Of a stretch of 59,206 bases of DNA, positions 3,595-9,550 are shown piece after piece. Position numbers and translations under genes: made by a program. The DNA lies in NCBI GenBank assembly GCA_902526005.1, contig CABZIW010000006.1:1-59206 (forward strand). The letters run 5' to 3'. The notes below the pieces were generated by a model. The model was not told where the DNA came from. It did no database searches and saw nothing but the letters and a program-made list of their open reading frames with translations. Position 1 is the first letter of the stretch; every line of letters begins with the position of its first letter. This stretch comes from an uncultured Pelagibacteraceae bacterium. Lineage in GTDB: Bacteria > Pseudomonadota > Alphaproteobacteria > Pelagibacterales > AG-422-B15.

Positions 3595-4113
3595 TTAGTT
3601 AGTTCTTACTGTTACAGAACGTCTATTTTGAGCCCATGCTTTATTATTAGATGCACTGTTAACTGGTCTTTCCTTACCAAAACTAATAGTAGTAATTCGA
3701 CTAGCGCTTATGCCTTGCGTCATTAAATAATCTTTAGCTGCATTCGCTCTTCTATCACCTAGGGCTAAGTTATATTCTCTTGTACCCCTTTCGTCAGCAT
3801 GACCTTCAATAGCAATAGTTACTGATCCATTTGCCTTTAACCATTTTGCTTGTTTAGCTAAAGTTGCCTGAGCTGCGCTTGTTAGTGAATAACTATCATA
3901 TGCAAAGAACACTCTGTCCGGCACATCAACAGCAAGCATTTCTACAGTATCAGTACCAACATAAACTCCATCTACGACTTCAACTTTAGATGCTGAACTT
4001 GATGATGATGATGTAGATGCAGTATCTTGTGGTGTTGTAGTACATGCAGCTAGAATGATTGCTGCAAAAGATAAAACTAAAAATCTATTTAAATTTTTAA
4101 ATGTTATTAACAT
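3595..4113 (-). CDS. pal: Peptidoglycan-associated lipoprotein Pal
   Basis: Outer-membrane lipoprotein that binds peptidoglycan and TolB and stabilises the envelope at the division site. The start is placed at the ATG at 4113, because GGGAG lies about 7 bases upstream and a lipoprotein signal peptide follows at once, with lipobox LAAC (Cys24). The longer reading from 4143 would put ten extra residues ahead of the signal. A Ser-rich linker leads to the OmpA-like domain, with the peptidoglycan-binding signature GHADERGTREYN and the conserved DRRANAAKDYL helix. At 172 residues it has the normal length. Confidence 0.96.
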   Translation of the reverse strand: MLITFKNLNRFLVLSFAAIILAACTTTPQDTASTSSSSSSASKVEVVDGVYVGTDTVEMLAVDVPDRVFFAYDSYSLTSAAQATLAKQAKWLKANGSVTIAIEGHADERGTREYNLALGDRRANAAKDYLMTQGISASRITTISFGKERPVNSASNNKAWAQNRRSVTVRTN

Positions 4114-4200
4114 TATAAACTCCCGTAATATTTGATCGCCCAAGTCCTAGTACTTTATTAATTTAAGTTACGCAAGTCTATAATAAAATAGCTGCGAATT

Positions 4201-4224
4201 GACTAAAATGGTCCTATTTTAGTC
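4201..4224 (-). other. 9-bp stem-loop between tolB and pal
   Basis: GACTAAAAT (4201-4209) pairs perfectly with ATTTTAGTC (4216-4224) around a six-base loop, ten bases after the tolB stop. On the transcribed strand no T-run follows, so it does not look like an intrinsic terminator. An mRNA-stability or processing element between tolB and the highly expressed pal is plausible, but this is inferred from position only. Confidence 0.5.
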
Positions 4225-4234
4225 GAAAAATTGC

Positions 4235-5557
4235 CTATTGTATCAATTTCGACCACGACGGGTCTGACGCATCAACTGGAGTTTCAAGCTTTCTCTCATT
4301 AAATCCTGTAAGATCAATTGACCAGATTGCTGAGGAATGGCCCTGACCTGCGTCATTAGACTTAGTTTCTCTATAAAATATCAAAACTCTTCCATTAGAG
4401 GACCAAGAAGGAGCCTCTTGATACCAATTTTCAGTTAAAAGTCTCTCTCCAGTTCCATCTGTTCTCATAACTCCAATAAAATATTGTCCCTGAAAATTTT
4501 TTGTAAAAGCAATGAGATCACCTCTTGGTGACCATACAGGTGTAGCATAATTACCTGTTCCTTTTGAAATTCTTTTTTGGTTTCTGCCATTACTATCCAT
4601 TACATAAATTTGTTGCGATCCGCCTCTATCAGAGTTGAATGTAATTCTTTTTCCATCTGGAGAATAGCTTGGTGATGTATCAATTGCGGGGCTGTCTGTT
4701 AACCTTTCAACTACTCTGGAAACTAAATCCATTACATATATGTCAGAATTACCTTCTCTAGCTAAACTCATGATGATCTTATTTCCATCTGGAGAAAAAC
4801 GTGGTGCGAATGTCATACCAGGAAAGTCTCCTACCACTTCTTGAATACCTGTTTGGATGTTTAATAAATATACTCGCGGAAGATTTTTAAAATAAGACAA
4901 ATAAGTGATCTCTTGTCTTACTGGATTAAATCTTGGTGTCAAAACAAGTTCTTTACCTGTAGTCAAAAATTTATGATTTGCTCCGTCCTGGTCCATTATC
5001 GCAAGTTTCTTAATGCGTTTATTTTTTGGTCCTTCTTCAGCGACATAAACTATTCTGGTATCGAAGTAGCCCTGCTCACCAGTTAGGCGCTCATAAATCT
5101 TATCTGCAATCATGTGACTAATTCTTCTCCAATTTTCAATTGTCGTAATTAAGACAAGTCCCTCGATTTCCTTTTCTGCTAGTGTATCCCAAAGTCTGAA
5201 CTCTACTCGAAGCCTTTCATTTTCAATTGATAGTTCTCCTGTTAATAAGCCCTGAGCCTTTATCAATCTCCAATCAGCAAAACGTGGATTTAAATGCATA
5301 GCTCTATTTTTTTGAATAAATGCATTTTCATCTACAGATAAAAATAATCCACTTCTCTCTAAATCATCAGCTATAACTTTACGGATGTTTGATGGTATAT
5401 TTTGATCCTCCAAAATACTATCGGTATCATGAAAAAATTCAGTAATGGCAATTGGTAGAGGTTCTCTATTACCCTCAGTAATATCAATTTCAATGATAGC
5501 AAATGAAATAGATGAAAAATGAAGAGCTATTACGATATATAAAAGTATTTTTTTCAT
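4235..5557 (-). CDS. tolB: Tol-Pal system protein TolB
   Basis: Periplasmic beta-propeller protein that shuttles between Pal and TolA to recycle Pal during constriction. The start ATG is preceded by GAGG about 9 bases away. Residues 1-20 form a Sec signal peptide. The N-terminal TolB domain (about 25-160) is followed by a six-bladed propeller with repeated WD40-like PD40 motifs such as [31 protein letters not shown] and [15 protein letters not shown]. Its length of 440 residues is standard. It sits 6 bases after tolA, in operon order tolQ-R-A-B. Confidence 0.97.
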
Positions 5558-5563
5558 AATAAA

Positions 5564-6376
5564 TTATCCTCTTAGTATCTCTCTAGGATCAAAATTCAAC
5601 TGTAAATTTTTCCAATTGTCATATCTTTCAACATCTGGAACTTTTATAGGATCACAACGTCTTACAGCTCTAAGGGCACTTTCAGCAAGAGTTCTAAAAT
5701 ATTTTTCGCTAGGCTTATTCATCCTTTCGTGCTGAACAACCTCTGGGGGTTTAAGTAAGGAACCATCTGTATTTAAATAAATCTTGATTTTAACAATCAT
5801 TGTATCATCATATGGAATTCCAAGAGGAATGCTCCAGCATTGCATGAATTGAGCTCTAATAGCATCCTCCTCTGATAAAGTTAGTCGTTTGTCGAGACTG
5901 GGTGTTGAGTCTAACGCTTCATAATCTTTTTCTATAATTTCTTCTGGATTATCCATTTTTGTATCTTTTTGTTTATCGATTAACTCAGCTAATTTAAGAG
6001 GATCAAATTTGTCTTTTTTCTTTACTTCAGGTTTTCGTACAGGCATGTTTTGTATCATTTTTTCTTCTAATTTTGTCTTTTCAATTTTTTCTTCATCGCT
6101 CGGATCTTTTACTTTTTCGTTGGATTTCTCATCTTTAGGTTTACTAATTGGCTGGTTTAATTTTGTTTCTTCCTTCTTTTTTTCAATTGGTTCTTTCTGT
6201 TCTTCAATTTTTTTACTAATTTGTGGGACATTTGTTTTTTCTGCAATTTCTATTAATTCAACTTGTATGACCGGCGGCATTTCCAAATCATTATTATTAA
6301 ATAATGGCAAAGATAAGACCGTGAATAAAAGTATAAAAACGTGTAGAAATATTGACCCTAAAACAGAAACTCTCAT
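5564..6376 (-). CDS. tolA: TolA, envelope-spanning Tol-Pal protein
   Basis: Inner-membrane-anchored protein that transmits proton-motive energy from TolQR to Pal and TolB. One transmembrane helix near the N-terminus (about residues 6-25) is followed by a Lys/Glu-rich helical stalk (about 45-160; for example EKKKEETKLNQPISKPK). A compact C-terminal domain of about 110 residues follows, with MQCWSIPLGIPYDD and ALRAVRRCDP. At 270 residues the stalk is short compared with E. coli (421) but usual for compact alphaproteobacteria. Confidence 0.92.
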   Translation of the reverse strand: MRVSVLGSIFLHVFILLFTVLSLPLFNNNDLEMPPVIQVELIEIAEKTNVPQISKKIEEQKEPIEKKKEETKLNQPISKPKDEKSNEKVKDPSDEEKIEKTKLEEKMIQNMPVRKPEVKKKDKFDPLKLAELIDKQKDTKMDNPEEIIEKDYEALDSTPSLDKRLTLSEEDAIRAQFMQCWSIPLGIPYDDTMIVKIKIYLNTDGSLLKPPEVVQHERMNKPSEKYFRTLAESALRAVRRCDPIKVPDVERYDNWKNLQLNFDPREILRG

Positions 6377-6392
6377 ATATAAATAGCTTTAA

Positions 6393-6797
6393 TTATTTAC
6401 TTAATGGCTTAGTAATCAAAGCAACTTTAGTAAAACCAGAACCAGATAGCTCACCTAAAACCATCATTATCTGTCCATAATCAATTGCTTCATCTCCTCT
6501 AACATAAATTTTTGTATCTAGCCTATTTTCTGTTATTGCTTTCATTTTTGGAACTAGTTCGGAAATTCCTATCTCGGTCTCTTGAATAAATATATTACCG
6601 CTCGCATCAATTGTTACCTCAAGTGGTTCATTGTCAGATTGTAAAGTATCAGCATTTGTTTCAGGTAAATCAACCTGAACTCCTACTGTTAACAAAGGAG
6701 CGGTTACCATAAAAATAATTAATAAAACCAACATTACATCAACAAATGGTGTTACGTTAATTTCACTGAATGGTTTTGATCGAGTGTTACGTGTCAC
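6393..6797 (-). CDS. tolR: TolR, ExbD/TolR-family biopolymer transport protein
   Basis: Proton-channel subunit that works with TolQ to energise TolA. The family signature lies at the N-terminus: SEINVTPFVDVMLVLLIIF, with the proton-carrying Asp in the single membrane helix. A periplasmic domain follows. The start is GTG at 6797; no strong ribosome-binding site is visible, and the gene lies 13 bases after tolQ, so coupling is likely. The 134-residue length is typical. Confidence 0.95.
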   Translation of the reverse strand: MTRNTRSKPFSEINVTPFVDVMLVLLIIFMVTAPLLTVGVQVDLPETNADTLQSDNEPLEVTIDASGNIFIQETEIGISELVPKMKAITENRLDTKIYVRGDEAIDYGQIMMVLGELSGSGFTKVALITKPLSK

Positions 6798-6810: not shown

Positions 6811-7515
6811 CTATTTCGAACTCAAGCCTCTTGAGAAAATGACATTAAAATGTTCTTTAAATCGATACATTCTTGCATTTTCATCATTCACCTGACTAGT
6901 AAATATATTGTAGGCTATAACAGCTGGTATTGCTGCTAATAAACCTAGAGCTGTTGCGAATAATGCTTCAGCTATTCCAGGAGCAACTACTGCAAGGGAG
7001 GTATTTCTTGAAATAGCAATAGATTGAAAAGAATTCATTATACCCCAGACCGTTCCAAATAATCCAATAAATGGTGTCGTAGCTCCTATTGTTGCCAAAT
7101 AACTAAAGTATTCGGATAGCTTCTCATTTTGAAAATCTATTGCTGCCTCCATAACACGATTTAATCTATCAACTAAACTATCTATTTTTTTTGTAGTTTC
7201 CTGATTAGACTTTTCAATCTCATCAACAGCTTCATTGAAAACATACTTAATTGGACTTTCTGGTAATTCTCTCGTGCTACTCGTGATTTCTTTTATTGAT
7301 CTTCCCGACCAAAATTCTTCCTCAAACTGCTTACTGATTTCTTTTAAAGAACGAAATAAACGAATTTTATGAATGATTATTGTCCATGAGAAAATAGAAG
7401 AAGCAAACAGAATTAGAATTACCAGCTTTACGACAATATCCGCTCTAAAAAAAAGTGAAATTAATGTAAACTCATCGTTTACTTGGCTAACACTTACTAA
7501 ATCTTCGTTTTCCAT
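6811..7515 (-). CDS. tolQ: TolQ, MotA/TolQ/ExbB proton channel protein
   Basis: Inner-membrane channel subunit that converts proton motive force into TolA movement. Three membrane segments are visible: one near the N-terminus (IVVKLVILILFASSIFSWTII), and two in the C-terminal half around GATTPFIGLFGTVWGIMNSF and ALFATALGLLAAIPAVIAYN, which are the family signature regions. I use ATG at 7515; a TTG three codons upstream is also open. It is first in the tol operon here, without the ybgC thioesterase gene that usually precedes it. Confidence 0.95.
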   Translation of the reverse strand: MENEDLVSVSQVNDEFTLISLFFRADIVVKLVILILFASSIFSWTIIIHKIRLFRSLKEISKQFEEEFWSGRSIKEITSSTRELPESPIKYVFNEAVDEIEKSNQETTKKIDSLVDRLNRVMEAAIDFQNEKLSEYFSYLATIGATTPFIGLFGTVWGIMNSFQSIAISRNTSLAVVAPGIAEALFATALGLLAAIPAVIAYNIFTSQVNDENARMYRFKEHFNVIFSRGLSSK

Positions 7516-7558
7516 AATTTTCAATTATTATTAAATATTGTCTTAATTAGGGCAAATC

Positions 7559-7939
7559 CTAAAGCCCTTTTTTACTATTAATTAATATTCGATAAAGTTC
7601 TATAAAATCGTCAAGTTTCAAAACACAAAGTGAGTCCCCTGTTGCCTCTCGATTTCTTCTCGTTATAACAATCGGCATTGAGTCTGATTTAGATGTTTCA
7701 ATATTTTCGCATACTTGTCTCATTGACTCATGAATTTTGAACTTTTCAGTTCTTTTAGCTTCGACGTATATATGAGGAGTATTTTTTAAATCACTACCTC
7801 CAGAAGATTTGATAGCACCACCACCTGACAAAGGCATACGTTGAACTTTATCTTCTCCATTAAAAATCTTTTCATTAAAGTACTTCGCAAGCTCTCTCTC
7901 GTATCCATCACCTTTTCTTTTTGGAGAACTACCTGGCAT
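7559..7939 (-). CDS. Small PD-(D/E)XK nuclease, Holliday-junction-resolvase-like
   Basis: A 126-residue protein with the layout of Hjc-type and phage-type PD-(D/E)XK resolvases. The GYEREL helix (Glu14/Glu16) comes first, then a Gly/Ser-rich loop RMPLSGGGAIKSSGG. Asp50 lies nine residues before Glu60-Ala-Lys62 (motif D-x9-ExK), followed by a helix with KIHESMRQVCENI and a strand PIVITRRNR. A closing LDDFIELY helix resembles phage nucleases of this group. The metal-binding residues are intact. It lies between yebC and tolQ on the same strand, a position that holds ruvCAB and ybgC in many proteobacteria. A role as junction resolvase is inferred; a phage-derived endonuclease is the alternative. 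Confidence 0.7.
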   Translation of the reverse strand: MPGSSPKRKGDGYERELAKYFNEKIFNGEDKVQRMPLSGGGAIKSSGGSDLKNTPHIYVEAKRTEKFKIHESMRQVCENIETSKSDSMPIVITRRNREATGDSLCVLKLDDFIELYRILINSKKGL

Positions 7940-8005
7940 AAAGCGAATCAGAATTACTTAATAATTTAAGATTAATTCATATAATTTTTTTTGAAAGTGA
8001 ATAAA

Positions 8006-8749
8006 TTAAGCAAACTTTGCTAATTCTTCGTCTGATGCCTCAAAATTTGAAAAGACTTGTTGAACATCCTCGTCATTATCAAGTTCATTGAGCAAGTTAA
8101 TAAGGGATTTAAGTTTATCTCCCTCAATTGCTACATACGTAACAGGTTTCCATTGGAAACCTGATGATACAGGTTCACCAAATTTTTTATCTAAATAATT
8201 ATATAAATTTGATAGAGTTTCCGGCGTGGATACTGCTTCATAAGTATCTTCTTCGATAAAACAATCTTCAGCTCCACCCTCAATTGAAAAGTTGAAAAAA
8301 TCTTCTTCACTTGTCACGTCTTTGTTGTAACGTACAAAACCATAATGATTAAATGCATGGGAGACTGAACCTGTTTCGCCCATTGAACCTCCAAATTTTT
8401 GAAATGCAGATCTTACATTTGACGCTGTTCTATTTCGATTATCTGTAAGTGCCTCGACAATTATCGACGTTCCGTTTGGACCAAATCCTTCGTACCTCAT
8501 TTGATCATAGTTAACAGTATCTTTATCCAAAGATTTTTTTATGGCTCTATCAATATTTTCCTTTGGGAAACTTGAGGCTTTTGCTAATTGTATAGCTGAT
8601 CTTAATCTCGCATTTTGATCAGGATCAGGTACGCCCAACTTAGCTGCTACTGTAATTTCCTTTGAAAGTTTAGAAAATAAACTGGCTCTCTTTTTATCTT
8701 GTGCACCTTTACGGTACATAATGTTTTTAAATTTAGAGTGGCCTGCCAT
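8006..8749 (-). CDS. yebC: YebC/TACO1-family regulator
   Basis: Family described both as DNA-binding transcriptional regulators and as translation factors that relieve ribosome stalling at proline-rich sequences. The N-terminal signature is MAGHSKFKNIMYRKGAQDKKR, close to the usual AGHSKWANIKHRK form. The YEGFGPNGTSIIVEALTDNRNRTASNVR block (about residues 82-108) and an acidic C-terminal domain ending in DDEDVQQVFSNFE are also present. The 247-residue length is normal. Its ATG abuts the stop of ymdB. In many relatives it precedes ruvC, which is absent here. Confidence 0.95.
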   Translation of the reverse strand: MAGHSKFKNIMYRKGAQDKKRASLFSKLSKEITVAAKLGVPDPDQNARLRSAIQLAKASSFPKENIDRAIKKSLDKDTVNYDQMRYEGFGPNGTSIIVEALTDNRNRTASNVRSAFQKFGGSMGETGSVSHAFNHYGFVRYNKDVTSEEDFFNFSIEGGAEDCFIEEDTYEAVSTPETLSNLYNYLDKKFGEPVSSGFQWKPVTYVAIEGDKLKSLINLLNELDNDEDVQQVFSNFEASDEELAKFA

Positions 8750-9550
8750 TTAATTACCGATTTTTCCTCCAACACGGATTGAACGAATGCTTTTTGCTAA
8801 GTAGTTTTCAGTGTTTGACTCTATAATAACCCCACATAATGTTCCTTCACCATCAGCAGGAGGTACCCTTTTTCGCTCAGTGTCTTGTGTAGCAAATTTT
8901 CTTACAAACTCCTCTTTTTTTGTGCCAATAACTGAGTCATAGTCGCCACACATTCCAGCGTCAGTTTGAAAAGCTGTTCCATGTTCCATAATTGTTGCAT
9001 CTGCTGTTGGAACGTGAGTATGAGTTCCAACTACTGCTGTTACTCTTCCGTCAAGATGGTGTCCCATTGCCATTTTTTCACTTGTAGCTTCAGCGTGAAA
9101 ATCGACAAATATAAATGATAGATCTTCAGTTTTTAAATTTTTAAGAACTTCTTCAATTTTAAAAAATGCATTATCACACGATCTCATAAATAGATTACCC
9201 ATTAAATTTATTACCGCAATTTTTTGTCCATTCTCATGCGTATAAGTATTTACACCTAAACCTGGGGAGCCTTCAGCAAAATTATAAGGCTTTAAAAGTT
9301 TATCATCTTTATCGATATAACTATTTATCTCTTTTTGATCCCACAAATGATTTCCAGTTGTAATTACATTAACTCCATAAGAATATAATTCGTTGCATAT
9401 TGGCTCTGTAATACCAAAGCCACCAGCAGAATTTTCCCCATTAGCAATAACAAAATCTATATTATTATTTTTAATAGCATCTGGTAAATGATCTCTCAAA
9501 GCATGTCTTCCAGATCGACCCATTACATCGCCTAAAAATAAAATTCTCAT
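8750..9550 (-). CDS. ymdB: YmdB-family metallophosphoesterase
   Basis: Member of the TIGR00282/YmdB metallophosphatase family, whose characterised members hydrolyse 2',3'-cyclic nucleotides. Metal-ligand motifs are in order: GDVMGRSGRHAL (Asp8), NGENSAGGFGI (Asn), TGNHLWDQKE, VDFHAEATSEK, and VVGTHTHVPTAD with paired His. The length is 266 residues. It is joined by four-base ATGA overlap to fau upstream and touches yebC downstream, so the three are probably cotranscribed and translationally coupled. Confidence 0.9.
   Translation of the reverse strand: MRILFLGDVMGRSGRHALRDHLPDAIKNNNIDFVIANGENSAGGFGITEPICNELYSYGVNVITTGNHLWDQKEINSYIDKDDKLLKPYNFAEGSPGLGVNTYTHENGQKIAVINLMGNLFMRSCDNAFFKIEEVLKNLKTEDLSFIFVDFHAEATSEKMAMGHHLDGRVTAVVGTHTHVPTADATIMEHGTAFQTDAGMCGDYDSVIGTKKEEFVRKFATQDTERKRVPPADGEGTLCGVIIESNTENYLAKSIRSIRVGGKIGN

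Follow-up and report, generated by a model that had tools for sequence, protein, structure and literature searches.

The window analysed in this work is the whole of a 59,206-nucleotide stretch of DNA (contig CABZIW010000006.1) from an uncultured SAR11 bacterium, whose genome of 1.23 Mb is assembled in 23 contigs and is 92% complete. Between yebC and tolQ it carries one open reading frame (ORF) of 126 residues, which encodes a predicted Holliday-junction (HJ) resolvase of phage type. This ORF is separated from yebC by 66 bases and from tolQ by 34 bases (Table 1). Between tolR and tolB lies a tolA-like ORF, for which Pfam gave no match, and four ORFs beyond tolB were named by eye as pal, cpoB, tilS and ftsH. 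No ruvC, ruvA, ruvB or ybgC was found in the window within the block from the YmdB-like gene to ftsH, and neither a methylase nor any other sizeable ORF lies between the nuclease gene and its neighbours. No phage genes adjoin it; the gene is a conserved chromosomal one. A preliminary description of this DNA had given the order yebC, one 126-residue ORF, tolQ, with the rest of the block kept, and this order is correct; the upper end it gave for the feature, 8006, is the end of yebC, and the ORF ends at 7939.

Table 1. Genes of the yebC-tolQ region of the window.
Feature	Position	Strand	Remarks
Phage-type PD-(D/E)XK nuclease, predicted HJ resolvase, 126 aa	7559..7939	-	PDDEXK_15, PHROG_244, Foldseek, invariant E14/D50/E60/K62
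yebC	8006..8749	-	Upstream neighbour of nuclease; Pfam TACO1_YebC domains
YmdB-like phosphoesterase gene	8750..9550	-	Upstream of yebC, conserved block; Pfam YmdB E 2.9e-102
tolQ	6811..7524	-	Downstream neighbour of nuclease; Pfam MotA_ExbB E 2.7e-35
tolR	6393..6797	-	Pfam ExbD E 1.1e-26
tolB	4235..5557	-	Pfam TolB_N E 1.8e-27

The motifs first noticed in the ORF are all present: GYEREL at residues 12-17, RMPLSGGG at 34-41, and the D50-x9-E60-x-K62 core. The protein matched PDDEXK_15 (PF24608) with 35.2 bits, over the curated cut-off of 27, and the PHROG_244 profile, which carries the annotation 'RusA-like', with an E-value of 1.5e-20 over residues 3-117 of 126. E14, D50, E60 and K62 are invariant in an alignment of 41 sequences; the role of E, D and E-x-K as active-site residues is known from Hjc. 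A structure predicted for the nuclease (pLDDT, a per-residue confidence score, 85.6) was compared with the PDB by Foldseek: rows 1-11 were Hjc-type resolvases (Hjc or ST1444) with moderate scores, row 12 was RecU, and a restriction enzyme, SwaI, came only at rank 13, which is in keeping with the likeness to Hjc- and phage-type resolvases proposed at the outset. A single-sequence PDB search gave nothing useful. The archaeal Hjc family (PF01870) scored 13.2 bits, under its cut-off of 21.1, and no Pfam or NCBIfam RuvC model matched the ORF. RecU and RusA were likewise missing from the listed Pfam matches, from which filters remove most weak ones. The protein would cleave four-way junctions, probably as a homodimer.

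We take the family of the window, f1, to be GTDB AG-422-B15, and its sister family, f2, to be Pelagibacteraceae. The nuclease was found in 43 of 53 f1 genomes, including 12/12 of those at least 90% complete, and in none of the 244 f2 genomes. Two of the ten f1 genomes without it were checked, and both lacked yebC as well. All 80 f1 loci examined (38 and 42 from two collections, in which many genomes occur twice, with 43 distinct nuclease gene sequences) have the yebC-nuclease-tolQ arrangement, which excludes chance as its source; the YmdB-like gene is present at 78 of them. The ratio of non-synonymous to synonymous substitution rates (dN/dS) of the nuclease had a median of 0.042 over 253 pairs (highest value 0.33), compared with 0.054 for yebC and 0.021 for tolQ. 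The nuclease is under purifying selection. It is not a common alphaproteobacterial gene: among 337 genomes of the class, profile A1 matched only the window's own.

No ruvCAB was found elsewhere, either in the genome of the window or in the order. RuvB (TIGR00635) exceeded the cut-off in none of the order's 297 genomes, the best score being 35 bits against 299; the seven best candidates were scored per genome, and all 14 in the window's own. RuvC (PF02075) was over cut-off in 0/297 genomes, the window's own included, and its sole weak match (20.4 bits, one f2 genome) is the RuvC-like slot protein of f2 described below. RuvA_N was found in none of the 31 genomes searched (21 of f1 and 10 of f2). 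Controls were over cut-off in 10/14, 8/14 and 10/14 genomes in the RuvB, RuvC and RuvA_N searches respectively. Since RuvB and RuvC stay under cut-off in all 297 genomes, several of which are single contigs, their absence is not an assembly gap. The best RuvB_N match of the window's genome (29.7 bits, over the Pfam cut-off) was rejected, as this protein is ClpX (676.6 bits). A second RuvB_N match in this genome reached 28.6 bits with its neighbours; the ClpX identity covers the 29.7-bit match only. The RuvB matches of the order are read as other AAA ATPases, the one identified being the best match of the window's genome. In conclusion, the RuvC-RuvA-RuvB machinery appears to be gone from the SAR11 genome. 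Together with the Hjc-type structural matches, this result supports the earlier proposal that the nuclease may have replaced RuvC at the same chromosomal position.

The sister family has a different protein in the slot. In 19 of 20 f2 loci a RuvC-like protein of 159-166 residues adjoins yebC, and the twentieth locus ends at a contig edge. This protein is not canonical RuvC: the NCBIfam RuvC model gave 14-21 bits against a cut-off of 163 (4/4 proteins), and the Pfam model gave 21.0 and 21.4 bits against 22.2 in two of six proteins and no match in the other four. All four proteins scanned belong to PHROG_1770 (E 3e-38 to 6e-36). Their nearest PDB entry is chloroplast MOC1 (E 1.1e-20, compared with 0.016 for canonical RuvC), and by eye they have D, E, D, D at the positions of the D, E, D, E of MOC1, residues that were mutated to give inactive enzyme (PMC7078210). 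In the tree the f2 slot proteins form one clade (98/97) within a set that includes five viral rows (97/92) and lies a long way from canonical RuvC. Profile comparison of the f1 nuclease with the f2 slot protein gave a probability of 0.2%, hence no detectable relation. Both the order-wide lack of ruvCAB and this unrelated phage-type resolvase of the sister family go beyond the preliminary description.

Some further features of the f2 loci were observed. For the RuvC-like enzyme (loci L141-L160 except L159), MOC1 is a nearer PDB match than bacterial RuvC, and one may ask whether MOC1 itself came from a phage. Some f2 genera (L144, L143 and L150) retain ybgC between the RuvC-like gene and tolQ, and others (L148, L149, L155, L142 and L153) lack it there; it is also missing from that position in f1. 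The yebC match of two f2 genomes (L156, L157) has one TAA inside.

The slot was then surveyed across the class. Canonical RuvC (TIGR00228) passed its cut-off in 104 of the 115 class genomes and matched more weakly in two more; the genomes without a match were two members of the order and seven others. Three of these seven show the locus past yebC, and all three have a single phage-type nuclease there (G319, family f25; G326, f32; G345, f51). Two of the remaining four loci stop at a contig edge, and two genomes gave no yebC. yebC was present in 77 of 80 further genomes, and at the 76 survey loci it is followed by ruvC or ruvA in 60, by a single nuclease in three (G450, f25; G456, f142; G469, f51) and by neither in 13. 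When loci were picked by canonical RuvC, ruvC or ruvA followed yebC in 25/30. Profile A2 led to a genome of family f119 (G413), in which yebC and ybgC flank a PHROG_1770-like gene.

These slot enzymes are of several types. That of f119 is of PHROG_1770 type (E 7.7e-22); it falls outside the f2-plus-virus set in the tree, in a region where long branches meet. Those of f25 and f32 belong to PHROG_2002 (E 2.1e-6 and 2e-8), to which the f142 enzyme was assigned through its 65% identity to f25; PHROG_2002 and the f1 type are at best remotely related (hhalign probability 81%). The f51 enzyme is PDDEXK_15 (E 2.3e-21), has one weak PADLOC match (E 0.014), and in the tree falls beside a viral protein (100/99), well away from f1. 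No ruv gene was seen at the f25, f32, f51, f119 and f142 loci, a result that holds for the locus only, as no genome-wide search was made for RuvA or RuvB in these families, nor for canonical RuvC in G413, G456, G450 and G469. The genomes measure 0.8-1.6 Mb, and a marine habitat is assumed. Judged from their sequences, five further alphaproteobacterial families thus appear to fill the ruvCAB slot with phage-type resolvases. Because related lineages hold other phage-type nucleases in the same slot, the swap seems to have occurred several times. If f25, f32 and f142 share one capture, there would be five (f1, f2, f25/f32/f142, f51 and f119), from three phage families, or four if f2 and f119 go back to the same capture.

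In two f51 loci (L249, L270) tilS directly follows the nuclease gene, and the tol block is not in between. In three other alphaproteobacteria (L165, L166, L168) a PHROG_1770-like gene lies on a contig other than that of yebC, perhaps as a prophage gene; canonical ruvC and ruvA adjoin yebC in these genomes.

The relatives of the f1 nuclease are largely viral. In IMG/VR, 67 loci encode relatives that are 45-55% identical to it. The f1 nucleases form one clade in the tree (97/97), nested in a set of 25 rows (95/81) that comprises 14 viral, 9 own-family and 2 other-bacterial rows. A protein of the Roseobacter phage CRP-810 shares 50.9% identity with the nuclease across 90% of the query; at E 1e-5 a search of 50,697 phage records gave no other match. 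Temperate phages of the CRP-810 type have also been reported as a prophage in a SAR11 single cell (PMC11288001). Transfer of the slot by a phage together with its neighbours was considered and rejected: the YebC, TolQ, TolR and YmdB-like proteins had no match in 170 viral loci of at most about 10 kb each.

Taken with the position of the gene and the absence of ruvCAB, these results make it probable, in our opinion, that a phage-derived, Hjc-like resolvase stands in for the whole of ruvCAB in f1, acting independently of RuvAB and with RecG. A single capture from phages, earlier than the diversification of the sampled f1 genomes, would have placed the gene in the yebC-tolQ slot, where purifying selection retains it. 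Its product, a compact, probably dimeric and metal-dependent nuclease, may recognise and cut four-way junctions alone, without RuvAB, and the migration of branch points would fall to RecG. Full-length RecG was found in 17 of 21 f1 genomes and in 10/10 f2 genomes tested, with scores of 597.7-658.4 bits, all slightly under the model cut-off of 659.4; the RecG of G002 passes another RecG model (862.1 bits against 785). Four f1 genomes lack RecG, the window's own included, and an assembly gap is likely since the neighbouring mfd is absent from the same four. This distribution is in keeping with the preliminary suggestion that branch migration may be left to a helicase such as RecG. In G002, recG and a short mfd of 788 aa are arranged head to head (L453:1201-3567 and 3861-5918), and the first 292 positions of the mfd model are unmatched; no comparable mfd-like match was listed in the 10 f2 genomes.

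Several known systems resemble the one proposed here. Phage resolvases of the PHROG_244/PDDEXK_15 type, such as that of CRP-810, share the sequence family and the invariant residues of the nuclease, which differs from them in being a conserved chromosomal gene without adjacent phage genes. Archaeal Hjc and Hje appear alike in predicted fold, at moderate scores, and have the E, D and ExK residues in the same order, but the nuclease is below the Pfam Hjc cut-off, and is bacterial and phage-derived. Chloroplast MOC1, the homologue of the f2 enzyme, has an RNase H fold and is unrelated to the nuclease of the window. RecU, like the nuclease a PD-(D/E)XK protein and its Foldseek neighbour, is a known RuvC substitute. 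In SAR11 RuvAB appears to be gone as well and the chromosomal position is kept, whereas RecU of Firmicutes stands in for RuvC, leaves RuvAB in place and is encoded away from ruvAB (PMC3403352). RusA is a laboratory precedent, as together with RecG it rescues E. coli ruvABC mutants. The RuvC of phage bIL67 is another: it restores the ultraviolet resistance of an E. coli ruvABC deletion (PMC3864405), a single phage resolvase thus doing the work of RuvABC, as proposed here. Compared with these rescues, SAR11 would be a natural replacement at the ruv locus.

Other histories and functions were weighed. ruvCAB may have been lost in the common ancestor, phage resolvases entering the empty slot later or replacing each other without any direct swap. 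The whole order lacks ruvCAB and yet its two families carry unrelated resolvases, so that what at least one of these displaced may not have been RuvCAB. This course of events deserves serious consideration, but we find it the less convincing one: the survey contains no intermediate genome, and it is difficult to picture a lineage with heavy recombination, as reported for this one (PMC12374537), going for long without a resolvase. The nuclease might also be a general debranching enzyme that acts on flaps and forks and is not the main resolvase, with RecG-driven reversal and further enzymes clearing the junctions. Phage resolvases have indeed been reported to act on branched DNA less selectively than their bacterial counterparts (PMC3864405). 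However, the nuclease sits in the ruvCAB slot, where lineages without ruvCAB at the locus put other resolvase families, one of them homologous to the proven resolvase MOC1, and we consider a mere debranching role unlikely.

The fold of the nuclease is common to restriction enzymes, as the presence of SwaI in the Foldseek list illustrates, and a restriction- or defence-type PD-(D/E)XK enzyme could have come to lie here by accident. We regard this as highly improbable: PADLOC families gave no match at E 0.1, no methylase is adjacent, the Hjc rows come first, and the gene is in every near-complete f1 genome with a housekeeping-like dN/dS. The replacement of ruvCAB by a phage-derived resolvase is the reading that we retain for f1.

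Gene displacement is of a known kind. Bacteria capture phage recombination genes (PMC8987985), and the displacement of RuvC is already known from RecU in Firmicutes. The repeated in-place exchange appears to be the new pattern. On balance we favour the view that ruvCAB has repeatedly been replaced in its slot beside yebC, with about five in-place exchanges for single, RuvAB-independent resolvases in small-genome, probably marine alphaproteobacteria, the sources being three phage families that are barely related to each other or not at all; recombination in SAR11 would then be finished by phage-type enzymes, whose looser junction specificity may feed its high level. Among the papers listed, judged by title and opening of the abstract, none describes the loss of the whole ruvCAB in SAR11 or its repeated exchange in place for phage-type resolvases; an earlier mention of ruv loss in this group is possible. 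Why one slot recurs could be explained by an operon position with suitable expression, by serial swapping of phage genes, or by a link with YebC, which has been proposed as a regulator of RuvABC (PMC3403352).

SAR11 bacteria are among the most abundant cell groups of the ocean. Their promiscuous recombination has been tied to missing RecBCD, RecF and MutSL (PMC12374537), in a paper whose main text does not contain the term 'ruv'. The repeated replacements offer a natural series for asking what cells need from RuvAB and, if the proposal is true, a phage-type, RuvAB-free last step of recombination would be a further possible cause of the promiscuous recombination of SAR11.
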